A DNA stretch of 64,000 bases from Carex sylvatica (lineage: Eukaryota > Streptophyta > Magnoliopsida > Poales > Cyperaceae), in assembly GCA_964058845.1 (NCBI GenBank), contig CAXKVR010000114.1:1-64000 (forward strand). Direction: 5' to 3'. A model generated the notes under the pieces. It searched no databases, had not been told where the DNA came from, and was given only the letters and a program-made list of their open reading frames with translations. Position numbers and translations under genes: made by a program. Positions 17,922 to 64,000 of this stretch are shown here, in pieces (position 1 is the stretch's first letter; the number at the start of each line of letters is the position of its first letter).

Positions 17922-20461
17922 TGTGACATTATGAACTCTTTTTAATAACTAAAATATTACATAAGGGCCTATTTGTAACACACATTTTAAAGTTTGGTAA
18001 TATTAAAGAAATGGAGGGGTATATGTGCAAAATTCCAATTATTAAAACAAAAACTCTTTCTTCTCATTTCATTTCCACCGAATGACTTGGATTAAAATTA
18101 CGGGAGGTTAGGTTAGAGCCGAAGCAAAAAGGGCAAGAGAGAGAGAGAGAGAAATTGAGCGCGGAATCTGATCGAACTGACCGGAAAATCGAGATTCGAG
18201 CTGAATTGACGATCCTTGATCGATTAGAAAGCTTCAATTTGGTATATCTTTCTCCCTTTCAATTCTTTTGAAAATCCTAATTTATTCGATTTGTCAGATT
18301 TTTGGTGAAATTCGATCGAATTTGATTTGAAACGTTATAACTCGATAATCGGATTGATTTGCTTGTGGAATTTGGAATTGAATTAGGGTTTTGGGGTTGG
18401 GTCATAATGGAAATGAATTTGTGTGTGAAATTGTCGGAATTAATCGAGTTATAACTTCGTAAAATATTCGATTCTGGTTATTTGGTTAAAACTACCGATT
18501 GAATTTGGAATTTGGATTTGGATTTGGTCGTTATTTTGAAATCCTTGAATTGTGTTGTTTCCTCGATGATTCGAGAGATACCGATACCCTTAAATTTGAT
18601 AACCGTATCAATATATGTTAACCAATCGAAGCCCGATCGAAAAGAATCGAAAACTAAACTGAAAACCTAAATTTTTGTGCACTGTTGCGGGCCGCAACAA
18701 CTTCCCTTGCGGGCCGTAAAAGGATCCAGTACTTAACCAAATTTGGAGTATGTTGAGCAGTGTTGGTTGCGGGCCGTAAGCCATTTATTGCGGGCCGCAA
18801 GTCAAGCAGGTCTTTTGGAGTGCTCTCGGACTTTTTGGGTTTCATTTGGTTGCGGGCCGTAAGGGCCATGATTGCGGGCCGCAAGAGGTAAGGAAAAAAA
18901 TTTGGGTGTTCAGCTGAGAGCTCTGCGGGCCGCAACAAATTGACCTCGGGCCGTAATACAAACTGCAAAATGCCCTATTTGATCATTGTGTCTATTTAAA
19001 CCCTAATTTCCTTGAACTTAAGTATGAACCTATATAAATAAGACCCGAATACCAATCCTAGACCGTGTTTAACGTGAACTAACTCGTGATAACCTATCGG
19101 ATATTAATCAAACGCTTTAATCGAATTTAACGTGTAAAATAGGTGGTAATCGGATGAGGCACCAGATCTCAGGATCGTTCGAGACACCTGAGCTTTAGGC
19201 GAGTGTGCTATTACTCAGGTGCGGGGTTTCTGGACTTGTCTGATAGTTTATATTCAGAAATTAAACTGTGTTTTGATTCAATTCATATGCATTGCATTGC
19301 CCAAATAAAGTGAAACTTGAATTGTTTAATCTGATTGATTTGCATGCTGGTATGGTTATTATTTGTGTTGATCTGAATGATATGAGTTTGGAATTAAAGT
19401 CACCGTGCTTTATATCACCATCGGTTGGTGGATATGGTATTATGGTCATCCACCGTGATGACGTCACTCAGGGAGTGAATCCGGATTTGTCAAGTCTATG
19501 CATGGACTGTGACGCTTAGTGTTCTAAAGCTTTAGATCGTCTGGCCCTCGGCAGTTCCCAGTACCGGTTGGGACGAGGGGTAAGTGACTTTGTATTATGA
19601 TTTTGGTTATGGGTGACTGTGTATCGGAGGCATTACCCAGGGGATATTGCGTTTGGATGGTCAATTGGATTTATATGGATTTCCGGATATGAATTAGAAC
19701 CAGACTTTTAATTAAACAGTTAAGCCTGTAACTACAGATGAGTGTCATGAGAAAAGGTTTTACCTGGTACAGCCGTCTGTAGGTGTCTGTAACCCTACAG
19801 ATGAGTGGGAACGAATTGGGGTCCAGTTTGGTGGAACATCTGTAGTTACTACCAGATATTCTGAAATCGAGTTAACCAAATATTGTGTGCTTGAATTTCA
19901 TCTTGGCAATTCCTAAATTGTGATTTCATTTGGATAAATGTTGTCAGGTTTGTGCATTCATGTTTATATATGATTATAAACTGATCTGAGCTTTATTTGC
20001 GTTTTATGTTTGAATATAATCTGTGATTGCAAGTCCAGGGACGATTTGTGGCAATTTATCGCACTGAGAATTCAATTCTCATCCCCTCTTTTGGGTTAAT
20101 TTTTCAGGTACCGGTTCGGCGGACCAGAGAGAGACACGAGGTCGGTAGGCCTGGTTTTCACCGCTACTGAGTTGTCTGGTATTTTGACATTAGAGATTAT
20201 GTATATAGTTATGTTTTGATTGTACATATATATTCTCTATGTCATCCTGTGATGCGTATCCATCGAGATACGGGTTTGTATGATATTACCTGACTAGCTG
20301 GGATTTGTGGACTTTTTGCTTATTTTATTTGGTTGTTTGCGTTGTTTGTTTATTTGTGTTTTACTTTCTATTATATCGTAATTGCCTTGTAGGCATACGG
20401 GCAACCGTATGTCTACGGCAGGAGGCACCTGTCGCGCCTCGTGGGGCCGCGGGGTGTGACA
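17922..20461. mobile_element. Solo LTR (2540 bp) inserted at the NLR-B start codon
   Basis: The insertion starts TGTGACA and ends GGTGTGACA (TG...CA). It is flanked by a 5-bp duplication AAAAT (17917-17921 and 20462-20466). Its size, termini and lack of any gag or pol match a solo LTR of a Ty3-gypsy type element; the lineage is not assigned. It has a (GA)n tract near 18138 and eight palindromes at 18685-18956. The empty site GCAAAATGGCAGG is seen at NLR-E. It was probably left by unequal LTR recombination. Confidence 0.8.
18685..18956. repeat. Four pairs of TTGCGG-G-CCGCAA dyads
   Basis: Eight odd palindromes of the form TTGCGGGCCGCAA (some with GTAA at one end) have centres at 18691/18713, 18773/18794, 18856/18878 and 18929/18950. 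Within pairs the spacing is 21-22 bp. The core CGGNCCG and the pairing match the dyads in the Athila element. Confidence 0.85.
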
Positions 20462-23400: not shown

Positions 23401-25756
23401 TGACACCATGCCAGTACACTTGGTAGATATGGGAAGGGTGATTACAAGAAGGTGTGGTGGGTTGCCATTGGCTGTGAAGTCAATTTCAAGTCTCCTTAGG
23501 CATGAAGCTAATGAAGAGGTTTGGACAGAGATTCTGGAAAGTGATATTTGGGAAATAAAAGAATCAAAAGAAGAGATTTTTCCAGCACTTGAGATAAGTT
23601 ATGCTCATCTACCTGCCTATCTTAAGCCCTGTTTTTTGCTTTGCTCAATGTACCCAAAAGATTACATATTACTACAAGAGGATTTGATAAAGTTGTGGAT
23701 TGCTCATGGGTACGTCAAGTCCCGGAGCAATAGAAAAATCATGGAAATTGGTGTTGAATATTGGAATGAGTTAAAAGAGAGGTCCTTTCTTGATGATTAT
23801 GAAACTGATTGGTACGAACCAGAATCTTGTAAGTTGCATGATATAATCCATGATCTTGCTCGATTTATTTCTGAGAATGAACAATACTCGGTGGAGATCA
23901 ATCATCCACTTGATATTCAAGAGAGAACTGTTCCACAAGAAGCATACCATTTATATGTAAGAGATTCATTGGGATATGTAAATCAAATTCCCCAACAAAC
24001 TATGAAGGGTTTAAGAACTATTTTTATGAATATCCAAGAATATTGTGGATACGGATATTGTACAAACTGTACAAAGTTCTCAAGATTGTGGATGAAAGTT
24101 TGTAAAGATTGTTTGGGAGACGTAACCTTGTGTAACCTCACTCAATTTGAAGTGCTCAGGGTATTGATAGTGAAATGGGATATTTTGACAAAAATTCCTG
24201 ATCACTCCATTTCTGAGTTGAAACATCTTACCTATCTAAGTATTACTTCTAAATTTCTTAAAGTGTTACCATTATCCATTGGCCTCCTTTACAACCTACT
24301 GGATTTAAAAGTTGAGTGTGAAACCCTTGAAGATCTACCTGAAAATATTGGTGATCTTCCTAACTTACAGTTTCTATCTATTCGTGCCAATATTAAGAAG
24401 CTACCAAAATCACTATGTTCACTTACTAACTTACTGGAATTAACTATTGGATTTTCAATAAACCGGAGATTCTTGGATTATGTCCCTCATGATCTTGTTA
24501 ATTTTCCATCAATAGCAAGAGTTTTTGCATTATGGAATGTTAGAACTATAGGTTGGTTAAAGGATATGAAAGACCTTAAAGGAATGATCTCTATTGGAAA
24601 ATTGAAGAACATTAATGATTTAGAAGATGCCAAGCGAGCTAACCTGAGAAATAAATGCAAACTTGAGATTTTAAAGTTAAGCTGGGATGATCATATGGTT
24701 CCTTTTTGCAGCTTGGACTCAGAGCTGGAATTAGATCTCGTACCAGGAGCTTGTGAGGCTGGGATAGTTGGGGCTGATGATATACATTTTTCCTTGTTAG
24801 AATGCCTCCAGCCTCATCCTAACCTCAAGGAACTTGGAGTAAAAGGTTATCCTTCTGCCATAGTACCAGGATGGATGAGGGATCCATTGTTATTGAAGTC
24901 AATTCAAGAACTCAGGTTAGAAAGTTGTGGCAATATCCGAACTATGCAGCTGGAACAGCTGTCGTCCCAGCTTAAAAGGTTGGCAATTTCAGGGTGTGAC
25001 CACCTGGAGTTGATTACCGGACTAGGGCATCTGGATATGTTGGAAGTACTAGAAATTGATGACTGTAAAACCCTGAAATCACTAACAATGGATGGACTGC
25101 AGTTGGTGGAATATACTGAGCCTTTTAGTGATTCCTCTCATGAAATACCACATATTAATCAACAGAGCATTTCATCAATAGTTCATGTAAGAAATTATCC
25201 TTCTGCCATAGTACCCGGGTGGATGAGGGATCCATTGTTATTGCAGGCAATTCAAAAACTCTGGTTATACAAGTGTGGCTATATTGAATCCCTTCCATTC
25301 GGCAATCTTCACACTCTCAAGGACCTCTCCGTTGCTTCATGTTCTAGTTTCCGAACTATGCAGGTGGAGCTGCTGCCCTCCCAGCTAGAAATTTTGCGTA
25401 TTGCACGTTGTAACCACCTGGAGTTGATTACCGGACTAGGGCATCTGGATAAGTTGGAAACACTGGAAATTTGTTACTGTAAAACCCTGAAATCAATAAC
25501 AATGGATGGACTGCAGTTGGTGGAATCTGCTGAGCCTTTTAGTGATTTCTCTAATGAAATGCCACATATTAATCGGCAGAGCATTTCATCACTCACAAGG
25601 TTGGAAATTAGAGACTGTGGTTCGCTTCATTCTCTGCCAGATGGGTTGATTCCATCTGGGCCTTGTGAGGTGTTTGTTGCAGGTTGCGGCTGCCCTGACT
25701 ACAAAAAATCAATTCAGGTTCATAATTTTACTATTATTATAATTATTATTATTTAA
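20465..25756 (+). CDS. NLR-B: CC-NBS-LRR resistance protein, two exons (1142 aa)
   Basis: Exon 1 is 20465-20836 (124 codons) and encodes an Rx-N type coiled coil with AYDAEDVLSEY, an EDVID variant. The phase-0 intron 20837-22699 ends AACAG. Exon 2 starts TAC ATT GTA CCA at 22700 and is open to 25756. Motifs are P-loop GKGGLGKTT (residues 212-220), Walker B LLVLNDVW with Asn291 for the first Asp, GLPLA (378-382), LHD for MHD (503-505), then LRRs. The LRR end contains a roughly 115-residue block twice in tandem (YPSAIVPGWMRDPLLL). The last residues are a poly-Ile run from an ATT microsatellite; splicing at CAG|GT 25717/25718 to 25911 would end the protein ETSSSHHSQR instead. The protein would be a cytosolic or nuclear pathogen receptor with an ADP/ATP switch. 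The start is the MAGN Met shared by all members. Confidence 0.92.
21168..22230. mobile_element. 1063-bp near-perfect palindromic Mutator-type MITE in NLR-B intron 1
   Basis: The ends are CCGAAATTTCTATTAGTA and the complement of CCGAAATTTTTATTAATA. The exact 9-bp duplication TTAATAAAG (21159-21167 and 22231-22239) is diagnostic of Mutator-type transposition. The arms remain complementary for about 500 bp each with a centre near 21700, including CCGGTTAATAA-rich stretches and TCGGATTTTTCGC. There is no coding capacity. It accounts for over half of the intron. Confidence 0.88.
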
Positions 25757-37081: not shown

Positions 37082-38549
37082 TGATATCTCCATATTATAT
37101 CTAATTTATGGCCCTAATTTACAATGAAACCTGTGCTTTAAAGCCTATGAATGTGGACTTTTTACTTATATTTCGATGAAATGTGGTACTGCTATGCTTT
37201 GTTTGGTATTTTGCAGGAAAAAGGGCGAAAAACTGGTTCTGACAACTTTTCATACGGCCCGTACGATATTCTGTACAGGCCGTACAAGAACTGCCCAACC
37301 ACACAGAAGGATCCACAACAGAGGCACAAAGTCTCCAAGTCAAAGCCCAGGCGTACGGGCCGTACGGGATCCTGTACGGGCCGTACAACGCTGATTCGGA
37401 AAATCCAGCTGGAATCTGAATTGAGCACGATTTGAGGAGCCGAAAAGGAAACCCCTGGAGGCGTGATCTGGGGCATTAAAGGAGATATTCCACAGCAGGA
37501 AAGGGAATTAATAGCAAATCAATCAATAACTTTCCATCATTCAATTCAATCATTGCTTTTTGCTAGGTTTTGGACAAGAGGAAAAGAGGAGGAGAAGGGA
37601 AGAACGCAAGTTTTGAACGGATCTTCAGATTTTCCACTGTTTTATCATGAACTCTTTTAATTCTTGTTATTTGTGTTATCTTATGAACATGAGTAGCTAA
37701 TTTACTTAGTTTCTAGGGGTAAGATGTAGTTTCTAGTTTAGCTTTGCTTGTATGCTACTTGGATTTTGTGTTGAACGCTTTGCTTTTACTTTGTTATGTA
37801 GTATTTTTATTGCTCTATTTGTGCTTGCTTGAATCTGATTAGTCATCCCGTTAGATGAATGCGCACATCTAAGTGTTAGGAGCCAAGTCTATGAAATTCA
37901 TTCCAACCGAATAAAGTATATGAAGTAGGGTTAAACCAAGGAGTACCCGAAAGGCGAAACTTTCCTTGAGGCGAAAGTCCTTGGACACTTTTAGTAAACT
38001 AACAAGTAACTTAGATAAATTAGGCCAAAATGCGAAAGTTGAGGTTTAACGCATCTAAGAGGGAAGTATTTGAGTCCGGTAATCGGGTATTAAGCCAAAA
38101 TGCGAAAGTTGAGGTTAGGTATCTAGATCTGGTCAAAAGAAACCCTAAACACAGTATCAACACAGAAAACAGTAGCTGCAGCATTAACTTGAGGTTCCAT
38201 ACGGACCGTACGGGAATCTGTACGGGCCGTATGCCTTGAGGCTAAACAGAAATGAAATCTGAACCCTGGAAACGCCTTTTTATCAATTGAAAACAACTTA
38301 AATTATCTTTTATTGTCTTTTAATCAGTAGAATTGTTAGAACCAAAACCAAACCAAATTTCTCTCACTTCTAGAGTGTTAAGTGATTTTAGGATAAGTCT
38401 AGTGATTTTATTCCGTCCCTGTGGATCGATACCTGAGCATACTCAACGACAGGATAGTACACTTGCTATCTGAATTGACAGAGTATAACAAAGGTTTAAA
38501 AAGTATAGCTTGCTATACTGAGACTTTTTGGCATATTCTCGTGCGATCA
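37082..38549 (+). repeat. Athila 5' LTR (1468 bp)
   Basis: The LTR begins TGATATCTCC and ends GCGATCA. It contains three dyad pairs (centres 37258/37279, 37359/37380, 38205/38226). Small frames inside it repeat exactly in the 3' LTR. Confidence 0.95.
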
Positions 38550-38555
38550 AGTTTT

Positions 38556-38573
38556 TGGCGCCGTTGCCGGGGA
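38556..38573 (+). other. Athila primer binding site (tRNA-Asp)
   Basis: TGGCGCCGTTGCCGGGGA starts six bases after the 5' LTR. It is complementary to the 3' end of plant tRNA-Asp, the primer of Athila-type elements. Confidence 0.9.
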
Positions 38574-38833
38574 CGGCAACTAAAATTCTATACTTTTTCT
38601 TATTTTTGCTTGATTCTAGATTTTAATTTTAATTTTTCGTATTTCATCTTTGCAGGAACATACTGGAAGAGTCACTGCCCAAGAACCACTACCATCTCAG
38701 AAGCAAGGGGCGAACTTCCAACACATTCGTTCCAGCACCACCACATCTGTCACCTCTCCGTACGGCCCGTACAAGATTCATACAGGCCGTACAAACCAAC
38801 AACAGAGGCCAGACAGATCCAGAACAAAGTAAA

Positions 38834-40072
38834 ATGAACAACCTCGGTGCTGAACGAGATCCACTCAACCTCGGTGCTGAACAAGATCCACTCAACGATG
38901 GAACTGGACAAGGTCCAACCAACGAGGATCAATACTCTGATGACGAAGGAGCAAACTACGCGCCAAGGACGTTGCGAGAGTTCAATGTCCCGCGAGCTGG
39001 AGATGTTAGAGGAGCAATCCGATTGCCAAGGATTGTCGGCAACCAACCCAACTTCAATCCGGGAGTTGTCAACATCGTGCAGCAAAACACATTCCATGGC
39101 ATGGATCATGAGGATCCGCATGCCCATGTTCAGACCTTCCTTGAATGCTGTGCCACCATTAAAATTAATGGCGCAACAGCTGATTATATTAGACTTGCTT
39201 TATTTCCTTTCACTCTTAGGGATAAAGCCAAGAAATGGTTAGGGTCATTACCAAGGGATTCAATAACCACTTGGAGGGAATTGTCCAAACTGTTTTTGAC
39301 CAGATTTTTCCCCCATAAAAGAACTGCCAAGGTTAGGACCCAACTGACCAGTTTTAGACAAAGGTCTGATGAACCACTGAATGAGGCCTGGGAAAGATTT
39401 AGGGAATTGCAATACTCTTGCCCACATCATGGTATTCCCGAATGGTTACTCATTCAATCTTTTTATGCTGGTTTAACTGATACCACTCGTACTTCTGTAG
39501 ATGCAGTTGCAGGTGGAGCTCTCATGGATCGAGATGCTACTGAGGCAATAACCTTAATCGACAATATGGCGACTAACCAACAGTGGTCCGGCCGAGAGGG
39601 TAATCGAACGACTGGAGGAGGCCGACTTGAGGTCGATCAGATCACCGCTCTCACCGCCAAGTTGGACGCCATGCAGAAAGCTTTTGACAAGATGAGTGTC
39701 AAAGCACTTGGTAATCAGCAACCACAGTCTTGTGTTATGTGTGGAGATGAAGGGCACGAGTATGAGAATTGCCCGCTTGCGCAAAGGGATGAAGGGCCCG
39801 AGCAAGTTAACTCTCTCAACAGTGAACCATCCTACTTTCCAAAACCTCCTTTCAGCCGAACCTATTCCAAGGACCCGATTGAACAACAGAATTGGAGGTG
39901 GAAGCAAAACAATCCCACACAATTCAACAACAACCCTTCTGGCAGCAACAACAACAACAACCGCAACTTCTACAACAATGCTGCATTCAATAACTCAAAC
40001 AACCGACCACCATATTCTGGACCATCTAAGCCCTATGTTGCCCCTGCAGTAGAAAACTTCATGCATGAATAA
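38834..40072 (+). CDS. Athila gag (412 aa)
   Basis: This is a retrotransposon gag (capsid) protein. The capsid region spans about residues 75-240 (FHGMDHEDPHAHV, KAKKWLGSLP, FFPHKRTAKVR). A CX2CX4HX4C zinc knuckle starts at about residue 300 (CVMCGDEGHEYENC), followed by an Asn-rich tail. The ATG follows an in-frame stop. The frame ends in TAA at 40070-40072, and the next frame reopens six bases later in the same phase. In most Athila elements gag and pol share one frame, so this stop could be a CAA-to-TAA mutation or a site of regulated readthrough. Packages the element RNA. Confidence 0.92.
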   Translation: MNNLGAERDPLNLGAEQDPLNDGTGQGPTNEDQYSDDEGANYAPRTLREFNVPRAGDVRGAIRLPRIVGNQPNFNPGVVNIVQQNTFHGMDHEDPHAHVQTFLECCATIKINGATADYIRLALFPFTLRDKAKKWLGSLPRDSITTWRELSKLFLTRFFPHKRTAKVRTQLTSFRQRSDEPLNEAWERFRELQYSCPHHGIPEWLLIQSFYAGLTDTTRTSVDAVAGGALMDRDATEAITLIDNMATNQQWSGREGNRTTGGGRLEVDQITALTAKLDAMQKAFDKMSVKALGNQQPQSCVMCGDEGHEYENCPLAQRDEGPEQVNSLNSEPSYFPKPPFSRTYSKDPIEQQNWRWKQNNPTQFNNNPSGSNNNNNRNFYNNAAFNNSNNRPPYSGPSKPYVAPAVENFMHE

Positions 40073-40078
40073 GGGAAG

Positions 40079-42640
40079 ATGAATCAAATGCTTTTCGAAC
40101 AGATGCAAACGATCAGTGCTCAATTGGCAAGTTTGGCCCAAAACAAACCTCAAAGTGGGAGCCAAACTGCACCACCACAACCTGGGATGCTACCAAGCCA
40201 ACCAAAGATTAACCCTAGGGGAGAGGCCAAAGCAGTAACATTGCGAAGTGGGACACAGTACCAAGGACCAGCCATACCTATCGAGCCAGAAGCCGATCAT
40301 ACGGTCCGTACGAATCCCATACGGCCCGTACCAACACCCCCTGCGATTTCTGAACAGTCAAAGCCTGATCCGATTGAGGTTGTGACTGAGACAACAGACC
40401 ATACGGTCCGTACAAATCCCGTACGGCCCGTACAGAATGAATCTGACAAACAGAAAAAGAAGGTGACCGAGAAACCACCGCCCTACCGGCCACCAGTACC
40501 ATTTCCACAGAGACTAGCCGAAACCCGACTCAACGAACAGTTCTCAAACTTTCTTGGAGTTCTCAAGCAATTGCACATTACCATTCCATTCACCGAGGCT
40601 TTGACCCAAATGCCAACCTATGCTAAGTTTCTCAAAGATATCCTATCCAATAAACGAAGCTTGGGGGGGCATGAGACGGTGAAATTGACTGAGCAGTGCA
40701 GTGCCATCCTGAGAAATGAACTTCCACCGAAATTGGGAGATCCGGGTAAATTTTCCATTCCATGTACAATTGGCAAAGCAACCATCCGACAAGCTTTATG
40801 TGATTTGGGGGCTAGTGTGAGTCTCATGCCGCGAACTATCTTCGAACGAATGGGTGTAGGCGAGCTTAGACCTACACGGATGACTTTACAACTTGCGGAT
40901 TCTTCGGTGAGACTACCACTTGGCATAGTGGAGGATGTACCGGTTCGAGTCGGTAAGTTCTATGTGCCCGGTGATTTTGTTGTGATGGAAATGGAGGAAG
41001 ACAAGGAGGTCCCTATCATTCTAGGACGGCCGTTTCTGAGAACAGCAGGAGCGCTGATTGATGTGAAGAATGGGACTTTAACCTTGAACATTGGAGATGA
41101 GAAAGTTCACTTCCAAATCGACCGAGCAATGAAGTATCCCGCTCAACCCGAATCGTGTTATATGGTCGATGTGATTGATGAATTAGTTGAAGAGAAGTTA
41201 ATGGAGCAAATCAACAACTCTCTAAGGTATCATTCTGATTTTTTATCTGATTTGCAGGCTGAAACAGGCGATCTTGAAACAATTTGCGCAGCAGACATGA
41301 CATCTGTCTGTCTGGAAGATTTTTCGTACGGGTCGTACACAGATCATACGGACCGTACACCAGACGAATTTCAAACAGAGAAGCTGGAGATTGAGAAGGA
41401 ACCAAAAGGCCAGTCTGAAGCTGAGGCATACGGTCCGCACGAAATCCATACGGCCCGTACAACAAGCCAGACAGCACAGACCACTCCCGAATTAAAACCT
41501 CTCCCAGCCACTCTCAGGTACGAATTCCTTGACTCAGAAAAGACATGTCCTGTTATTGTGAATGCAGGATTGACCCCTGACCAAACCGCCAAGCTCATGG
41601 AGAAGTTGAGAACCCACAAAGGCGCGATTGGGTATTCTATCAAGGACTTGAAGGGGATCGATCCAACCACTTGCACACACAGGATCTTGCTAGAAGACGA
41701 CCACAAGCCTTCAGTTGAACACCAAAGACGGCTCAACCCGAATTTAAAAGAGGTAGTAAAGAAAGAAATTTTAAAACTTTATGAAGCAGGTATCATCTAC
41801 CCGATTTCTGACAGCAAATGGGTGAGTCCCGTCCATGTGGTTCCCAAGAAAGGAGGAGCAACAGTGGTGAAAAATGAGAAAGATGAGATGATTCAAACGC
41901 GCGTTGCAACCGGTTGGAGGATGTGCATAGATTATCGGAAGCTCAACGCGGCTACACGCAAAGATCACTTTCCCTTGCCATTTGTTGATCAACTCCTTGA
42001 GAGGCTTGCTAACCACTCATATTTTTGTTATCTTGATGGTTATTCAGGTTTCTTTCAGATTCCCATTCACCCGCAGGATCAAGAGAAGACCACATTCACA
42101 TGCCCATACGGTACCTACGCATACCGTAGGATGCCTTTCGGTCTTTGCAATGCACCTGCGACTTTTCAAAGAGCCATGATGGCTATTTTTTCTGATTTTA
42201 TTGAGAAAGAAGTTGAAATTTTTATGGATGATTTTTCTGTATACGGTACCTCTTTTGATGCTTGTTTGGCTAACTTGTGTAAAATTTTGCAGAGATGTGA
42301 AGAAGTCAATTTAGTCCTCAATTGGGAAAAATGTCATTTCATGGTCCAAGAAGGGATTGTCTTGGGGCATGTTATCACCTCTAGAGGAATCGAGGTTGAT
42401 AAAGCAAAAATTGAGATAATCGAGAAACTCAAAATCCCAACAAATGTCAAGGGGGTTCGAAGTTTTCTTGGACATGCCGGTTTTTATCGCCGTTTCATAA
42501 AGGACTTCTCAAAAATTGCGAAACCTTTGACCAATTTACTTATCAAAGATTCTGATTTTATTTTCACTGATGATTGTGTCAAGTCCTTTTGCAGTTTAAA
42601 GGAAGCTCTTACAACCGCCAGATTGGTCACTACCATTTGA
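40079..42640 (+). CDS. Athila protease and reverse transcriptase (853 aa)
   Basis: This is in the same phase as gag. The early part has [10 protein letters not shown], an Athila signature near the gag-protease junction. The retropepsin-like protease has [13 protein letters not shown] and [10 protein letters not shown] has [51 protein letters not shown] and the catalytic FMDD. Inter-domain linkers hold dyad pairs at 40300-40433 (before protease) and 41327-41460 (between protease and RT). The frame stops at 42640 because of a small indel near 42605-42617; the following RNase H is one frame over. A GAAGCTTGGGGGGG tract at 40656 resembles a second polypurine tract. Confidence 0.93.
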
Positions 42641-42641
42641 G

Positions 42642-44492
42642 TTGATGTGCGATGCAAGCGACTATGCAGTCGGAGCAGTTCTGGGGCAACGGAAAGACAA
42701 AAAGCCGTGTGTTATTTACTATGCTAGCAAGGTGCTAGATCCTGCCCAAATGAACTACACCACAACCGAAAAGGAGCTCCTCGCCATCGTATTTGCTCTC
42801 GATAAATTCAGATCATATTTGGTGGGCTCGAAGATAGTGGTCTACACAGATCATGCCGCACTAAGGTACCTTTTAAGTAAAAAAGATGCAAAACCAAGAC
42901 TGATTAGATGGATTCTTCTTTTGCAGGAGTTCGATCTTGAGATAAGAGATACGAAAGGAGTCGAGAACTCTGTGGCGGACCATCTGTCACGTCTTCATTG
43001 GGAAGAAGATACCACAACTAAGCTCCCAATCAATGACTCATTCCCCGATGAACAACTCCTTGCAATCAGTTCTGATCTGGACGACATCCATACGGGCCGT
43101 ACAGAAGTTCATACGGCCTGTACAATCCAACATACGGACCGTGCACAAATTCATACGGACCGTACAAGTACCAACCAGTCCAAACAGCAAACTCCCTGGT
43201 ATGCCGACATCGCAAATTACCTAGTCTCTGGAGTTTTGCCAGCCACAATGTCCCAACAACAGAAGAAGAAACTAAGGTCGGATTCCAAGTACTACTTTTG
43301 GGACGAGCCCTACCTCTTCAAGGTTGGAGTTGATGGCGTATTCCGACGCTGTGTTCCATTCGAGGAAACAGATTCTATTCTTGCACATTGCCACTCGTCC
43401 GCTTATGGAGGACACTCTTCATTCTCTAAGACCACTGCCAAGGTATTACAATCTGGTTTCTTTTGGCCTTCTCTTTTTAAAGATGCAAGATCTTTTGTTA
43501 TAGCTTGTGATAGGTGCCAAAGAACTGGAAACATGACAAGACGAAGTGAGATGCCTCTCAACTTTATTCTTGAGGTCGAGATTTTTGATGTTTGGGGCAT
43601 CGATTTCATGGGTCCATTCCCATCTTCTCGAGGGAATGAGTATATTTTGGTGGCAGTCGACTATGTATCAAAGTGGGTTGAGGCCATGGCGTGCCGCAAA
43701 GCTGACTCAAATTCGGTAAGAAAGTTTTTCAATGAGATCATTTTCCCTCGTTTTGGGGTGCCTCGAGCTGTCATCAGTGACGGAGGCAAGCACTTCATCA
43801 ATCGACAATTCAAAAATCTCCTGAGCCGACATGGGGTGACTCACAAGGTATCAACTTCTTATCACCCTCAAACTAATGGCCAAGCTGAGATTTCTAACAG
43901 GGAAATCAAGTCGATTTTAGAGAAAACAGTCGCAAGGACAAGGAAGGATTGGGCTTTCAAGCTGCATGATGCACTTTGGGCCTATCGCACTGCCTTCAAG
44001 ACACCGATTGGCATGAGCCCTTACAAGCTGGTGTATGGAAAGCCGTGTCACCTTCCCGTTGAAATTGAGCACAAGGCGTTTTGGGCCACAAGAGCGATCA
44101 ACATGGACCTCCTCGCAGCTGGAGAAAAGCGTATCCTCGACTTGCATGAGTTGGAGGAAATGAGGTTGCATGCGTATGAGAATGCGAGGTTTTACAAGGA
44201 AAAGACGAAGCGATTGCACGACCAACGCATTTCGCCTCGCCAGTTCAAAGAGGGAGATCTTGTACTTTTATTTAATGCTAGATTGAGAATTTTTCCAGGT
44301 AAACTCAAATCGAGATGGTCCGGCCCATTTCAGGTAGAGAAAGTGTACCCTTTCGGAGCGATTGACATCTGGAGCAAAGAAAGTGGAACCTTCAAAGTAA
44401 ATGGTCAGCGTCTCAAGCACTACGTTGCTGACCACTTGATGAATCAGCGGTGTGTTCAGTTTCTTTCTGACCCTGCTCCGATGGAAGCTTAA
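42642..44492 (+). CDS. Athila RNase H and integrase (pol 3' part)
   Basis: Homology begins at about 42611 (PDWSLPFEL) in this frame; the first ATG at 42642 is only the first Met after the frameshift. RNase H has [28 protein letters not shown] and VYTDHAAL. A linker with four dyads exactly 21 bp apart (43091-43164) encodes HTxRT heptads. Integrase has the HHCC zinc region ([10 protein letters not shown] ... CDRCQ), DDE residues in [17 protein letters not shown] and the [12 protein letters not shown] segment. A C-terminal domain ends near DPAPMEA. It would be made only by frameshifting or supplied in trans in this copy. Confidence 0.93.
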
Positions 44493-45102
44493 GTTGTGAG
44501 GTGGTCTAGCTAAAGACCTAAAACGAGCGCTTCTTGGGAGGCAACCCAAGCATTTTTAAAAAAAAATATTATTTTGTTTACTCATTTCTCTTATTATGAC
44601 TTTAGTTTCTGAATACTTAGTTTTATATTAGTTTAATTTGAATTTTTCATTTTGTAGTTGTGTTTAAATTTTGATCAGACAGGAGCAACAATCAATTCAG
44701 GGGATTGGTACGGCCCGTACTAAAAACCATACGGGCCGTATGGAAACCATTCGGCGCAGAATCTCAAAGGGCGCGACCTTCTCCCTTCGCACTCCTTCGG
44801 CTTAATTCGCGTCCCTTCGAATAGACCCTCTCCCCTTTTATACCAGTGCCCCACTGCTCCACCCTCGCGATTTCCTCCAGGCCGCACCACAAATACCTCG
44901 CCGCCGACACCCTTTTCTAATAAGACACCGACCCGTGCAAATTTTCAACAGCCGCCTCCGACCAAACCCTACCGGCCGCCTCTTTTCCCTCTGTGCACAC
45001 ACCACCCTACGGCCCGTACAAACTCCCTATCCGGCCCGTAGCGCCACACCATCCGACCCGCCCAAACCCTCGTACGGGCCGTATCACTTTTCACTGACAG
45101 CT
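44493..45102 (+). other. Athila region between pol and the third ORF
   Basis: The region opens with GCGCTTCTTGGGAGGCAACCC at 44528, a stretch conserved after pol in Athila-type elements. It then has an AT-rich part and dyads at 44714/44735, 45013/45035 and 45078. It probably carries the leader or acceptor for expression of the third ORF. The frame is open from 44935 but lacks an ATG before 45103. Confidence 0.75.
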
Positions 45103-46437
45103 ATGTCTGGTGAGCGCCGTCAAAAGCGTCGCCAAGACCACCCACCCACACCACCCCGTCATCCATCCCCAGAGCCCTATGACTCCGGCCCTGAGCGGAC
45201 TTCATCTGGCGAGTACACCGATCGGGCCGACCGCTTCGCGGCAAGGTATTTCGAAATGCCTACTCGTCGGATGTACAAGAATTTCCTCTCTTTACAAAAG
45301 AAGGTCTTCGAGAACACTGCCACAGTCCACCTCGACACACTCCATAGTTTTGGAGTGGAGGATGATTTCATTCTTCTTACCGCTGGGATTGGGATTACCA
45401 TGGATTTCTTGAAAATCAACCACCCCGCCTACGAGATGGATACCAAAGAATTCCTCTCCTCTCTCGAGCTCAAGATGGACGACCAGGATGTCCTCTTTAT
45501 CAAATTCCGGCTCTGCAATCAAACCCATCGCGTCCATCTCTCTTCTCTACGCGAGTGGTTCGGTTTCTGTCGCGAGCCCACTACTGACACTCTGAGTTTC
45601 CGCGAGGGGTGGGATCGCGATACTTTCTGGGGCATGATCACCGGCTGCCCTCGCTCAACCAATGCCTCCTACCGCGCCCGCTACATCCCTCACCCTGTTC
45701 TTCGTATCATCCAGCGCGCCCTTGCTTCTACCATCTTCGCGCGCGGTGAGACTCAGAACCGCGCCAACTCCATCGACCTCATGCTCATGGACAACATGCT
45801 CCGTGCCGACACTGAGTATCCCGATTTGGCCCTTCTCATGGTCCAACACTGGCTTGGGCAGCAGGCCAACACCAAACCGGGTGGCAAGATAAAAATTGGA
45901 GCATACGTAGAGGTCATCAAGCGACAACTTGGTTTGGGGGCGTATCCCGGCCGCGGCGAATGTCCAGGCCCCACTCGTATGGACCCCGAGAGCTTCCGCC
46001 AGGCCCTCTTCATTAACATCTCCCGCGGCCCCGCCGGTCATTCTGACTACTACGACTGGCGCTTCGTCGACGGCACTTCACGCCGCCTTCCATTTGGACC
46101 GTCCGTCTCCGTGATGGATCCCTCCACCTGGTTGGTCTCTGCGACTCCGCCTCCTACCTCTGACATTCCCAGTACCTCCTCCCAGCCACCCACATCTGAG
46201 TACTACCGCCCTTGCCCACCTGACCCCTCTCTTCGGGATCTCTACTCTCTCATGACTGACATCCGAGCCACTCAGCTGCAGCAGGACCGCGACATCACAG
46301 CCATCCAGCAGCAGACCGCTACTCACACCACTCGCCTGGATGAGATTAGTGGGTACATGGCTGACTATGCCGAGCGCCTGGGTGACATCGAGGACCAGTT
46401 TCGCGACTGGCGCTTCGACCCCTCTTCTGACTACTGA
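45103..46437 (+). CDS. Athila third ORF (env-position protein, 444 aa)
   Basis: This is the ORF downstream of pol in the place of env and resembles the ATHILA ORF-1 family of plant retrotransposons. ATG 45103 (MSGERRQKRRQDHP) is chosen as the first Met; the longer open frame upstream has no ATG. Its first residues are basic and Pro-rich. The core has RMYKNFLSLQKKVFENTATVH, FGVEDDFILLTAGIG and LREWFGF. The C-terminus has a coiled-coil-like stretch (LQQDRDITAIQQQTATHTTRLDEI). I see no signal peptide or clear membrane segment, so a true envelope function is doubtful. The reading frame is intact and noticeably more GC-rich than its surroundings. Confidence 0.85.
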   Translation: MSGERRQKRRQDHPPTPPRHPSPEPYDSGPERTSSGEYTDRADRFAARYFEMPTRRMYKNFLSLQKKVFENTATVHLDTLHSFGVEDDFILLTAGIGITMDFLKINHPAYEMDTKEFLSSLELKMDDQDVLFIKFRLCNQTHRVHLSSLREWFGFCREPTTDTLSFREGWDRDTFWGMITGCPRSTNASYRARYIPHPVLRIIQRALASTIFARGETQNRANSIDLMLMDNMLRADTEYPDLALLMVQHWLGQQANTKPGGKIKIGAYVEVIKRQLGLGAYPGRGECPGPTRMDPESFRQALFINISRGPAGHSDYYDWRFVDGTSRRLPFGPSVSVMDPSTWLVSATPPPTSDIPSTSSQPPTSEYYRPCPPDPSLRDLYSLMTDIRATQLQQDRDITAIQQQTATHTTRLDEISGYMADYAERLGDIEDQFRDWRFDPSSDY

Positions 46438-47397
46438 TCAGGTTTCTTTCTCCCTACCCTAGCTTATTTATTTTTCCCATTACATATCCTGAAGCATTGA
46501 GGACAATGCTCGGACTAAGCTTGGGGGGGTGATTAGTTATTTTCTTTATTTTGCATTTAGTTTGTCTTAGTTTGTTTTTATGTTTGCATGTTTTGAGGAT
46601 TAAATCTGTGTGAATTGCGTGAATTAGGGTTCAATTTGAAAAATTTTGGTTGTGAAATGGTTGAATTAGGGAAATTGGAAATAACCACACGTTTGGTTGA
46701 AAGAACTGTATACGATAGTCTGTTTTGAGACTTTGTAGAATTGAATTGAATTGTGTCAAGAAAGCATTTGAAATTGGATTATGCCTTGTAAAAATAGAAA
46801 AATGGGATTTCAAAGCAATAGAAAGATTTGGACATCCATTGGTATGAATGAATATTATTGGATGTGTGTATTCATGATGTATACAAAGGGAAAAGATGGA
46901 GAATATAAGAGTACTGGCAATAAGCCATATTGGGCGCCTTTGAGCTCGTCTCCCATACGGGCCGTACCCAAATCATACGGACCGTACATCTAAAAAAATG
47001 GTGCCTTTACATACATCAACACACGAAGTCCATGACTTTCTGACCTAAGCTTGTTCCAAGCTTGGGGGAATTCAAAGGAAAACGAATCACCACAAATGAG
47101 GGCATAAATTTGGTAAAAGAATGAACTATTGATGCGTTTGATTGCTTAGTTCTTACAAATAACAATTCATTCTTGAAGTTAGGGTTTGATCAATTGAATT
47201 GTGGGGTGAATTAAAGTTGACCAAAGGAAACCAAGTTACTATCCAAAATGACTCTAATGGATTTCTAACGAACGCAAGATCATGCACATTTTTCCTCTTA
47301 GTAGATTAACTTGCATTTAGGTAAGTCCAACAACCTAAACCACACCTAAGTTAGAATTTTTGCTTGAGGACAAGCAAAGTTCAAGCTTGGGGGAATT
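46438..47397 (+). other. Athila 3' untranslated region with repeated polypurine tracts
   Basis: AAGCTTGGGGG-type tracts occur at 46517-46530, 47058-47069 and 47383-47397, the last directly before the 3' LTR. GAGGACAA precedes the first and last. A dyad pair lies at 46961/46981. No coding region. Confidence 0.75.
47383..47397 (+). other. Athila polypurine tract
   Basis: AAGCTTGGGGGAATT abuts the 3' LTR start (TGATATC at 47398), the position required for plus-strand priming. Confidence 0.88.
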
Positions 47398-48865
47398 TGA
47401 TATCTCCATATTATATCTAATTTATGGCCCTAATTTACAATGAAACCTGTGCTTTAAAGCCTATGAATGTGGACTTTTTACTTATATTTCGATGAAATGT
47501 GGTACTGCTATGCTTTGTTTGGTATTTTGCAGGAAAAAGGGCGAAAAACTGGTTCTGACAACTTTTCATACGGCCCGTACGATATTCTGTACAGGCCGTA
47601 CAAGAACTGCCCAACCACACAGAAGGATCCACAACAGAGGCACAAAGTCTCCAAGTCAAAGCCCAGGCGTACGGGCCGTACGGGATCCTGTACGGGCCGT
47701 ACAACGCTGATTCGGAAAATCCAGCTGGAATCTGAATTGAGCACGATTTGAGGAGCCGAAAAGGAAACCCCTGGAGGCGTGATCTGGGGCATTAAAGGAG
47801 ATATTCCACAGCAGGAAAGGGAATTAATAGCAAATCAATCAATAACTTTCCATCATTCAATTCAATCATTGCTTTTTGCTAGGTTTTGGACAAGAGGAAA
47901 AGAGGAGGAGAAGGGAAGAACGCAAGTTTTGAACGGATCTTCAGATTTTCCACTGTTTTATCATGAACTCTTTTAATTCTTGTTATTTGTGTTATCTTAT
48001 GAACATGAGTAGCTAATTTACTTAGTTTCTAGGGGTAAGATGTAGTTTCTAGTTTAGCTTTGCTTGTATGCTACTTGGATTTTGTGTTGAACGCTTTGCT
48101 TTTACTTTGTTATGTAGTATTTTTATTGCTCTATTTGTGCTTGCTTGAATCTGATTAGTCATCCCGTTAGATGAATGCGCACATCTAAGTGTTAGGAGCC
48201 AAGTCTATGAAATTCATTCCAACCGAATAAAGTATATGAAGTAGGGTTAAACCAAGGAGTACCCGAAAGGCGAAACTTTCCTTGAGGCGAAAGTCCTTGG
48301 ACACTTTTAGTAAACTAACAAGTAACTTAGATAAATTAGGCCAAAATGCGAAAGTTGAGGTTTAACGCATCTAAGAGGGAAGTATTTGAGTCCGGTAATC
48401 GGGTATTAAGCCAAAATGCGAAAGTTGAGGTTAGGTATCTAGATCTGGTCAAAAGAAACCCTAAACACAGTATCAACACAGAAAACAGTAGCTGCAGCAT
48501 TAACTTGAGGTTCCATACGGACCGTACGGGAATCTGTACGGGCCGTATGCCTTGAGGCTAAACAGAAATGAAATCTGAACCCTGGAAACGCCTTTTTATC
48601 AATTGAAAACAACTTAAATTATCTTTTATTGTCTTTTAATCAGTAGAATTGTTAGAACCAAAACCAAACCAAATTTCTCTCACTTCTAGAGTGTTAAGTG
48701 ATTTTAGGATAAGTCTAGTGATTTTATTCCGTCCCTGTGGATCGATACCTGAGCATACTCAACGACAGGATAGTACACTTGCTATCTGAATTGACAGAGT
48801 ATAACAAAGGTTTAAAAAGTATAGCTTGCTATACTGAGACTTTTTGGCATATTCTCGTGCGATCA
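47398..48865 (+). repeat. Athila 3' LTR (1468 bp)
   Basis: This is a copy of 37082-38549 at +10316 with no difference seen by eye. It ends GCGATCA and is followed by the TSD GCCCC. Confidence 0.95.
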
Positions 48866-61329: not shown

Positions 61330-64000
61330 ATGGCAGGGAATTTGATAACCTCTGTGCTCTCTCTAGCCACCAAATTGCTCCCCTCAATTACAGCCTCTGC
61401 CCAGGCTCCTTCCTCTTCATCAAATTCTAATAACTCAGAAAAGGAGCGTGCTCGTGCTGCTGAGGAGGATATGGAGAGCTTGATGCGAACTCTCACTTGG
61501 ATCAAGGCCACACTATATGATGCTGAGGAGAGGGAGATTAGTGACCGCTCTGTCAAGCTCTGGCTCAAGGAGCTCAAGAAGGTTGCTTATGATGCTGAGG
61601 ATGTGTTCAGCGAGTACCGATATGAGGTCACACGTGTTGAAGTAGAGGCAAAAAAGGCTTCTCAAGCATCCGGTTCTCACAAGAGAAAGCAGATGCAAGT
61701 GAGTGTCTTGTGCATATATAAAATGAAAGGATCTTGCTTGCGCTAGTGTTTTTGTTTTGTCATTGTGTGGTACTGAAAACAAATGAAGGATGCTTGAATT
61801 TCCTTTCTCCCTTTATATTTAAAGCTGGATTGGAATTCACTAGAGTGGCCACTTGTTTTATTACCAGCTTTTCAAATCTAACATCAGAGTGGTAACTTGA
61901 TCCCTTACTTTTATCAATTTTAGTTAACACATTAAAAAATTTGTCATACTTATGTAAGGCATTTCTTTTTGACAGTACATTGTTCCAATTCCTGATGTCA
62001 TGAAAGATCGGCTCAACAAATTAAGAAGTCGATTTGACGAAATTGCGAAAAATCGTGAGGATCTCCAATTAAGGGAGACTGACGGGGTGAGGCATCCCAA
62101 CAACAAAATTATACGACCCCAAACAGGACACATGGTGGATGAGGTGAGTATTTTTGGTAGAGATGCTGAAATATCGGAGATCATCAATTTCTTACTATCT
62201 GAAAAAGATAAGTCTTTTTCGATCATTTCAATTGTTGGCAAAGGTGGCCTCGGAAAAACCACCATTGCTCAACTTGTTTACAAAAATATGAGAGATTATC
62301 GGCTCTTTGATTTATTTGGGTGGGTATATGTCTCGGAAGAATTTGATGCCATTAGACTCACCAAAGCAACCATTGAATCAATCTCCTCTAAAATCGATTT
62401 GAGTGAGTTGAGCCCATTACAATATGAGCTTGCAGAAACTGTGAAGGGAAAAACAATATTGCTTGTTTTAGATGATGTGTGGAACGAGAATCAAAGTCTT
62501 TGGGAGTTGTTCCGGGTTCCTTTTAAGGTAGCAAAGGTAGTCAGAATTCTCGTGACAACAAGAAATAAAAAAGTTGCAGAGGTCATGCAAACAACAACCA
62601 GTTTTAGTCCTACTAACTTGCCTGAAGATTCATGCTGGCAGTTGTTTCAGCATTATGCATTTAGTGGTACAAATTACACCGGGCAAACACTCTTCTTGAA
62701 GAGAGAAATGGGAAGGGAGATAATGAGAAAGTGTGGTGGGTTGCCATTGGCTGTGAAGTCGATTGCAGGCCTCCTTAGGTATGAAACAAATGAAGATGGT
62801 TGGAGAGAAATTCTAGAAAGTGTTCTTTGGGAATCAAATATCTCGAATGATATATTTCCAGCACTTCAAATCAGCTTTGCCCATTTACCTGCTCACCTTA
62901 AGCCATGTTTTTTGTTTTGCTCAATGTACCCTAAAGATTACATATTACAAAAGATGAATTTGATAGATTTATGGATCTCTCATGGCTACATCAAGTACAG
63001 GGGCAAAAGAAGAATCACAGAAATTGGTGTTGAATATTATGAGGAGTTAAAAGAGAGGTCGTTTCTTGATAATTTTTCAGGCCAATCTTCAGAATGTTGT
63101 AAGCTGCACGATATAATTCATGACCTTGCTCGAATTAATTCTGAGAATGAGCATTATTCGGTGGAGTTAAATCAACCACTTGATACTCAAGAGAGAAATG
63201 TTCTGCTACAAGCACACCATCTATATGTAGGCGGTTTTGTGGGATATGCAAACCAAATTCTCCAACAAAATCTGAAGGGTTTAAGAACTCTTTCTACGGA
63301 TCTGAGAGAATGCGGCAAAGATTTGGAGCACGAGTTTTGTATAAACAATACAGAGGTAATGGACCTAAATTTGAAATTGTCTGAATATTATGAACAATGT
63401 TCGAGGGACATTGCCATATCTGACCTCACTGAATTTGAAGCACTCAGGGTATTGGATTTGAAAGGGTATAATTTGATAAACATACCTCCCTCTATTTCTA
63501 AGTTTAAACATCTTGTTTATCTCGGTGTTACTTCTTTGCGTCTTACAATGTTTCCACAATCCATTGGCCTTCTTTACAACCTGCAGACATTCATTATTGA
63601 TTGTTATTCTCTTACACATCTACCTGAAAGTATTGGTGATCTTGCTAACTTAGAGTTTCTAAATATTCACTCAAGCAAAGTTAAGAAGCTACCTGAATCA
63701 CTTTGTTCACTCAGTAACTTACAGAGATTAGTTGTTAAAGGTGGCAATTTAGAGGAAGTCCCTTTAGGTCTCAAAAATCTCTGCAACCTTCATGTATTAA
63801 CAGTTATTTCTAGCCGTATTCAAGCATTGCCTAATACAATAAGTTGTCTCAATAATTTAGAGGAGCTCAACTTTTTGCCTCCTGGAGGTTCAGTCAAAGA
63901 CACCCGCAAGCTGAATTATGTCCCTCATGGTGTTGTTAATTTTCCAGCAATAAAAGCATTGAATGCAAGGTTAAGAGTTAGAACTATTGCATGGTTAAAA
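61330..64000 (+). CDS. NLR-E: CC-NBS-LRR resistance protein (runs off the right edge)
   Basis: Exon 1 is 61330-61698 (123 codons, MAGNLITSVLS) with a GTGAGT donor. The phase-0 intron is 61699-61975 (GACAG acceptor). Exon 2 is open from 61976 to the window end, 675 codons with no stop found. CC domain: AYDAEDVFSEY. NB-ARC: GKGGLGKTT (residues 211-219), canonical LLVLDDVW (about 285-292), GLPLA (378-382) and LHD for MHD (500-502). LRRs begin near residue 570 (LRVLDLKGYN, LPESIGDLANLEFL). All key switch residues are present except the Met of MHD, which is Leu in the whole cluster. The leader ends TTGCAAAATGG. It is the most likely functional member of the cluster. Confidence 0.93.

Follow-up and report, generated by a model that had tools for sequence, protein, structure and literature searches.

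Paired CGG-N-CCG palindromes about two helical turns apart in an Athila retrotransposon of Carex sylvatica and in other Ty3/gypsy elements

The first 64,000 nucleotides of contig CAXKVR010000114.1 of the sedge Carex sylvatica (GenBank assembly GCA_964058845.1, positions 1 to 64,000, forward strand; hereafter the window) contain an Athila element, a retrotransposon with long terminal repeats (LTRs), in which odd palindromes of the type TACGGNCCGTA stand in pairs with centres 20-22 bp apart, close to two turns of the double helix. The pairs are found in LTR, leader and coding sequence alike, their layout recurs with other letters in other Athila subfamilies, and one type of palindrome is common to Athila and to non-Athila families. 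These sites are proposed to be paired docking sites on DNA for a dimeric, more likely host-encoded protein, kept because they help the element, a reading to which even weight is given for and against.

Twenty-five exact TACGGNCCGTA sites were found in the element, and 33 when one mismatch was allowed, in agreement with the figure of about 33 given in a preliminary description of this DNA; all ten of the coordinates named there are site centres at no more than one mismatch. The element itself was also correctly recognized in that description, its true bounds (37082-48865) being slightly wider than the 37251..48550 first assigned. Because six of the 33 sites sit in the 3' LTR and repeat those of the 5' LTR, the independent ones number 27, made up of eleven pairs, a run of four and a further single site (45078). 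As had been described, the spacing within pairs and run is 20-22 bp; it accounts for 14 of the 26 neighbour distances (six at 20, seven at 21 and one at 22 bp), against a mean of 0.33 distances at 19-23 bp, and a maximum of 4, in 20,000 trials in which 27 sites were placed at random. Markov-shuffled versions of the element yielded 0.03 sites at up to one mismatch, and a chance origin of sites and spacing was rejected on these two controls together with a reversed-pattern search of the genome. Sites are present in the LTR and leader, in three gag-pol linkers, after integrase, before the ATHILA ATG and before the 3' LTR. Twelve of the 27 fall in gag-pol frames and use all three reading phases, so that one palindrome is read, depending on phase, as HTxRT, (I/V)RPV or YGxY/H; counting every listed open reading frame (ORF), the number is 15, of which three (45013, 45035 and 45078) precede the aligned ATG of the ATHILA ORF. 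Pairs repeat 102 bp apart in two linkers (40300-40432 and 41327-41459) and 101 bp apart in the LTR (37253-37385). The window as a whole holds 41 exact CGGNCCG motifs, 29 in the Athila element, eight in a second paired cluster (18685-18956) and four elsewhere.

The spacing is maintained across the genome assembly that was scanned (G000; 64 Mb in 950 contigs), which holds 1,166 exact TACGGNCCGTA sites vs 23 for the reversed pattern. With spacers of 8-12 bp there are 401 exact pairs, 400 of them at 20 or 21 bp (127 at the 20-bp step, with a 9-bp spacer, and 273 at the 21-bp step, with a 10-bp spacer); spacers of 8, 11 and 12 bp combined contribute a single pair, and none genome-wide has a spacer of 0-7 bp. 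At spacers of 13-43 bp, all 27 exact pairs stand at a 42-bp step, and a decayed site is recognizable midway in nearly all of them. The reversed pattern gave no pair in any of these genome-wide searches. The excess at this spacing that had been predicted for other family members is thus present, both in these counts and in the 30 copies compared below; as the pairs are mostly repeats of one family, the counts show conservation and not independent origin. In an automated phase test of the longer gaps (25-125 bp; n = 38, each length being counted once per family), the best period was 10.5 bp (R = 0.48; p is 0.001 when periods of 9.9-10.8 bp are considered and 0.0085 for the whole 7-14 range), while all neighbours closer than 25 bp in the automated scan stood at 20-22 bp. 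A same-face geometry, as first postulated from the near-two-turn spacing, is supported by the pairs and by the longer gaps, which lie near whole 10.5-bp turns; this phasing favours a protein on one face of the DNA over stems in RNA.

Selection was assessed at the arm positions of 13 sites, in a 4.8-kb stretch compared across 30 copies (29 besides that of the window). Mean major-allele frequency was 0.956 in arms vs 0.817 in centres, and the arm value was reached by none of 140 shifted masks. At fourfold-degenerate positions it was 0.979 inside arms (n = 16) vs 0.930 at the others (n = 441), a value reached by 2.2% of random draws, or by 0.5% if drawn from the 69 such positions in the same linkers. 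Compared with the window copy, identity was 0.926 in arms and 0.740 at the centre, with 0.806 in the 10 bp next to a site and 0.878 in flanks at 20-60 bp; sites such as 43117, 45013, 45035 and 45078 are regularly imperfect across copies. These values support a constraint at the level of the nucleic acid that extends over LTR, untranslated and coding sequence, as the preliminary description had supposed. A mutational by-product, through local tandem duplication or the spread of a functionless module of ~35 bp, might account for the two short arrays that Tandem Repeats Finder places at sites (43089-43167 and 44709-44755) and for the 103-bp and 116-bp repeats that carry sites in the divergent copies L035 and L038. 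However, spacers vary between pairs while arms do not, the same linkers hold different palindromes in the same register, and silent positions are conserved; such an origin is considered very improbable, and the earlier view that tandem duplication is not the sole source is upheld by arms kept where spacers differ.

Methylated plant DNA mutates fast at CpG sites. Across the 30 copies, TG or CA stood at 20 of 704 CpG cells in sites vs 321 of 4,266 elsewhere (p = 7e-7), whereas losses private to one copy were not significantly different (9/704 vs 76/4,266, p = 0.43). Because sites lose CpG less often than other sequence, and do so in respect of losses common to several copies, they are seen, in this alignment of copies, to be kept in lineages that continued transposing. 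For local protection from methylation, one form of the methylation signal suggested initially, this indirect test is equivocal: private loss is not significantly lower, though the difference for all losses is strong. The sites could instead be handles for host silencing, through a repressor or the CG/CCG methylation machinery, without benefit to the element; CpG is indeed present in every site type, and sunflower Athila clades differ in their methylation patterns according to the portion available of one study (PMC12844716). A silencing handle should be lost, yet CpG loss is the rarer in sites by way of losses common to copies, and this explanation is regarded as improbable.

The letters of the palindromes turn over between Athila subfamilies while the layout is kept, to judge from pieces of 14 divergent copies (four larger, ten of 2.1 kb) in which homologous linkers were located by tblastn for the larger pieces and, for the smaller, deduced from their distance to the integrase match. 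Palindromes of the form CACGG/TACGG-N-CCGTG are found in L035 and L072-L074, ATGCGA-N-TCGCAT in L075 and L076, TTGCGG-N-CCGCAA in L078 and L079, CCGCA-N-TGCGG in L036 and L081, and GTGCG-NN-CGCAC in L038 and L080, while in L077 an exact TACGG site is accompanied, at 20 bp, by a weak one. Homologous linkers thus hold different palindromes at a spacing of 20-22 bp, the second site often being imperfect. The CGG-CCG core is present in TACGGNCCGTA, CACGGNCCGTG and TTGCGGNCCGCAA and absent from ATGCGANTCGCAT, CCGCANTGCGG and GTGCGNNCGCAC. The best-matching offset from exact sites was 20 or 21 bp in four profiled Athila families (in L038 only slightly ahead of 17 bp) and 22 bp in the second cluster of the window. 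Palindromes with five-base arms exceeded the maximum of 100 shuffles in the window element (20 vs 4), L038 (10 vs 3) and L035 (4 vs 2), were borderline in L036 (5 vs 5), and did not rise above 100 shuffles in L037, L054 and L055. No exact ATGCGANTCGCAT pair occurs genome-wide at spacers of 0-30 bp, the second sites of that subfamily being imperfect. L076 (G000:C938) combines TACGGNCCGTA pairs (TACGG) in the protease-reverse transcriptase (RT) linker with ATGCGANTCGCAT in the RNase H-integrase linker, and is perhaps a recombinant between subfamilies.

Traces of the same layout were sought in proteins, 228 of which were surveyed, 185 with an RNase H-integrase linker. In the 19 long linkers (at least 48 residues), identity was 0.152 at a lag of 7 residues, the remaining lags between 2 and 15 giving 0.05-0.11. 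A stricter repeat test (4 of 5 residues, 7 apart) picked only P0001, P0003, P0012 and P0076 in this linker, and also unrelated repeats elsewhere in other proteins. The linker peptides of P0012 from Rhynchospora breviuscula (NSDRIPYNSDRI, NSDRIPSNSDRI and AIRSEFQAIRSEL) would represent two frames, both fitting AATTCGGNCCGAATT at 21-bp steps when read back from peptide. By eye, the DATRI/M peptides of P0173, from Carex rostrata, and of P0004 fit ATGCGANTCGCAT, a sequence seen directly in the DNA of L076.

A second paired cluster, unmentioned in the preliminary description, consists of eight TTGCGGNCCGCAA-type sites in the LTR of another family, of which 24 matching pieces were found in the genome. 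The internal part of another copy of this family is Ty3/gypsy, with an RT 38% identical to that of the window Athila, as is the RT of a sister family; at this identity neither is Athila, and the second-cluster family is presumably Tekay/Del-like. Across 12 of its loci, among them that of the window, neighbouring sites stand 21 or 22 bp apart in 48 of 93 cases, some being counted twice as two loci overlap. Genome-wide there are 46 exact TTGCGGNCCGCAA pairs (43 at 22 bp and three at 21 bp), and the 15 that were placed span two Athila-related groups and two non-Athila families: seven in the second-cluster family, two in a second non-Athila family (L084 and L087), one in the Athila copy L078 and five in an Athila-related derivative (L085 and L086). 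When the Athila and non-Athila stretches are compared, BLAST aligns only pieces of 23-39 bp, which fall on the paired module; one further piece, of 41 bp, is common to the two non-Athila LTRs. A shared reader is the easiest explanation of one palindrome common to otherwise unlike elements, and would most simply be a protein of the host. The Athila-related derivative (G000:C93:283000-288000, comprising L083 and L085, and C818, L086) lacks most of RT and integrase, gag-protease running almost straight into the integrase tail; L083 is its coding part, and both L083 and L085 have TTGCGGNCCGCAA-type pairs.

The sharing of a palindrome between families bears on the element-encoded anti-silencing factor that was originally envisaged by analogy with VANDAL transposons, in which the ATHILA ORF product, or another protein of the element, would bind its own palindrome and keep the element active, protein and letters co-evolving. 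It is retained as an alternative because letters vary by subfamily, each having its own palindrome, and because the ATHILA protein has a basic stretch at its start and, in a predicted model, a terminal 62-residue helix that could dimerise. Sites stand directly upstream of the ATHILA ORF, in P0230 too, where the frame before the aligned ATG reads YGPHKLSYGPY, and a nuclear signal is predicted for a sunflower Athila ORF of this type in the part available of PMC11728184. Against this, the TTGCGG palindrome also serves non-Athila families, the model (mean pLDDT just 66.9) yielded no fold match of use (best Foldseek E of 0.12, with the VIA rows all on the long helix), the sites are palindromic and placed also in coding sequence, unlike the targets of the VANDAL protein VANC, and CpG decay private to one copy is not significantly lower in sites. 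An element-encoded reader is accordingly judged unlikely.

The unit might also act as RNA, neighbouring sites forming a stem-loop for packaging, dimerisation or the production of small RNAs, as suggested for the palindromes of Sireviruses; with its one-base centre, a palindrome of the present kind cannot fold into a hairpin by itself. RNA folding of eight paired stretches gave z values from -1.65 to -6.39, and none of 200 shuffles folded as well in five of them (2, 5 and 10 shuffles in the other three). Covariation was looked for in the arm variants and not found: Watson-Crick pairing was restored between sites in 2 of 176 variant cells and within a site in none, with 48 G-U in either case. 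The central bases of paired sites, in 169 pair-copies (11 of 180 being dropped as gapped or lost), formed 55 Watson-Crick pairs, 28 G-U pairs and no pair in 86. Moreover, a hairpin loop of 9-11 nt is not required, and RNA leaves the phased gaps of 30-117 bp unexplained. Small RNAs do map onto palindrome clusters in maize Sireviruses, as reported in the part available of PMC10760457; a role as RNA is nevertheless judged unlikely.

The preferred reading thus remains that of paired docking sites on DNA. Each odd palindrome, with its single free central base, would be bound as double-stranded DNA by a protein dimer, which would sit cooperatively with a second at the site two helical turns off on the same face. 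The reader may be one protein or a family of paralogues with differing letter preferences, more likely encoded by the host, and the sites would have been retained for a benefit to the element, most likely activation of transcription or the keeping open of the whole element. Several observations weigh against this reading. The genome-wide pairs are copies and not independent events, and the paired sites are also able to form hairpins in RNA. A looser scan (2-3 mismatches) adds some spacings of 4-17 bp in L035, L036 and L038, and the phase test rests on 38 gaps, with motifs and mismatch limits picked by the analyst. An earlier, hand-compiled phase test peaked at 10.0-10.1 bp (46 gaps, R = 0.52); it counted some homologous gaps twice (after collapsing, 40 gaps, R = 0.46, p = 0.0016) and was replaced by the automated version. 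The arms, at 0.926 identity to the window copy, are below the RT and integrase cores (0.957 and 0.960), which carry protein constraint. Letters differ so markedly between subfamilies that one host protein would not account for them, one copy (C64/L037) has only one weak pair (21 bp), and RNase H-integrase linkers are short in 166 of the 185 proteins (25-34 residues in 147). Finally, a search of genome contigs gave 18 loci, and CGGNCCG is absent from the three that were scanned, at 57-59% identity (L054, L055 and the short L056); as some relatives are without sites, Athila in general does not need them. L054 and L055, from Solirubrobacter and Geminicoccus assemblies, are plant-like, mutually similar Athila contigs that are apparently contamination. 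Viral contigs gave no match to the paired pattern and no relatives in one protein search; another found two distant relatives (31-32% identity).

The closest precedent is the repeated motif (RM) of the Sireviruses, which belong to Ty1/copia; in the portions available of its description (Bousios et al., 2010; PMC2829016), a CGG-CCG core is present in 12 of 13 listed palindromes, and copies are located within the LTR and, for the most part, before the env-like ORF. RM and the present sites have in common many palindrome copies per element, richness in CpG, a location in the LTR and letters that vary by element. RM was called Sirevirus-specific, classic retrotransposons being without it, whereas the carriers here are Athila and non-Athila Ty3/gypsy elements. 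The sites here are paired at 20-22 bp, while those portions of the RM account give no inter-copy spacing; 12 of 27 independent sites fall in gag-pol frames, whereas RM copies are nearly all in the LTR or before env; and the gag-pol linker sites use three reading frames around a single free central base. The palindromes clustered in the regulatory region of maize Sirevirus LTRs (CACCGGACNNNGTCCGGTG) are similar in their clustering and have been tied to RNA secondary structure and small RNAs (Bousios et al., 2016, via the part available of PMC10760457), but the longer gaps here show helical phase. The motifs of VANC, in the part available of PMC5735166, resemble the Athila sites as short repeats across the element whose letters differ in related families; they share one orientation, lie for the most part in tandem repeats outside coding sequence and are bound by the element's protein, and those listed do not look palindromic by our own reading, whereas the Athila sites are palindromic, with 15 of 27 independent sites in listed ORF frames. 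The initial statement that such a system would be new must be qualified, as CGG-CCG motifs were described for Sireviruses in the portions cited; what is new relative to that precedent is the Ty3/gypsy class, the two-turn lattice, the sites in coding linkers and the turnover of letters with a fixed layout. In the literature searched, from which most subscription papers were out of reach, no mention of pairs of this kind in Athila or Tekay came to light, and a search on LOB-domain proteins as reader yielded nothing usable. More tentatively, and with rather less confidence than not, a general cis-code of plant Ty3/gypsy elements may be envisaged, in which dyads containing two CpGs, mostly around a single free base, are set on a two-turn lattice that spans the whole element and includes coding parts. 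Dimeric nuclear proteins of one family would read it; lineages would switch letters and keep the lattice, and unrelated families would converge on the same letters for one reader.

The window element has Gag, protease, RT, RNase H and integrase between its LTRs in the order typical of gypsy elements, followed by the ATHILA ORF, which matches PF03078 at 62.4 bits (cut-off 20.2), as do 15 of 15 members of its alignment (A2). The identity of the two LTRs suggests a recent insertion. TGGCGCCGTTGCCGGGGA adjoins the 5' LTR on the internal side and is a putative Athila tRNA-Asp primer binding site. The closest named relative in the integrase search is from the sedge R. breviuscula (68%), and the sole species named among matches to the ATHILA ORF is C. 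rostrata. At 42640 the pol frame is broken at the RT-RNase H junction in the window copy; several other copies in the genome have a single frame of ~1,949 codons. Elsewhere in the window, repeated gene copies at 1-1431, 22677-25756 and 61953-63293, 81-94% identical, resemble nucleotide-binding site-leucine-rich repeat (NBS-LRR) resistance genes, by eye from translation.

Table 1. Coordinates of the Athila element, its genes and the paired palindromic sites in the window.
Feature	Position	Strand	Details
Athila element	37082-48865		flanked by 5-bp GCCCC target duplication; ATHILA ORF and gypsy-order genes
5' LTR	37082..38549	+	1,468 bp; 100% identical to 3' LTR
3' LTR	47398..48865	+	1,468 bp; followed by GCCCC target duplication
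Gag ORF	38834..40072	+	412 aa; PF03732
Protease and RT ORF	40079..42640	+	853 aa
RNase H and integrase ORF	42642..44492	+	616 aa
ATHILA ORF	44935..46437	+	PF03078; listed from GTG; homologue-aligned start is an internal ATG near 45103
LTR pair	37253..37284	.	centres 37258/37279, 21 bp
LTR pair	37354..37385	.	centres 37359/37380, 21 bp
LTR pair	38200..38231	.	centres 38205/38226, 21 bp
5' leader pair, just before gag	38761..38791	.	centres 38766/38786, 20 bp
Pair, linker before protease	40300..40330	.	centres 40305/40325, 20 bp; peptides HTVRT / IRPVP
Pair, linker before protease	40402..40432	.	centres 40407/40427, 20 bp; 102 bp past preceding pair
Pair, protease-RT linker	41327..41357	.	centres 41332/41352, 20 bp
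Pair, protease-RT linker	41429..41459	.	centres 41434/41454, 20 bp
Run of four, RNase H-integrase linker	43091..43164	.	centres 43096/43117/43138/43159, 21 bp each
Pair after integrase ORF	44709..44740	.	centres 44714/44735, 21 bp
Pair and extra site, just upstream of first ATG of ATHILA ORF (near 45103)	45008..45083	.	45013/45035 (22 bp) and 45078
Pair before 3' LTR	46956..46986	.	centres 46961/46981, 20 bp
3' LTR copies of the three LTR pairs			centres 47574/47595, 47675/47696, 48521/48542
Second paired cluster, eight TTGCGGNCCGCAA-type sites	18685..18956	.	within-pair 22/21/22/21; LTR of non-Athila Ty3/gypsy family

If the sites bind protein, they open a direct way to study how large families of retrotransposons remain active in plants, and the reader protein can be fished out with bait that is short, repeated and pre-sorted by specificity. 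The finding would connect the regulation of Ty3/gypsy with that of Ty1/copia elements, and the polyprotein gene would be shown to cede linker space to sites that act at the level of DNA. The peptide signatures (HTxRT, DATRI and NSDRI at 7-residue steps) make the trait scorable in protein databases alone.

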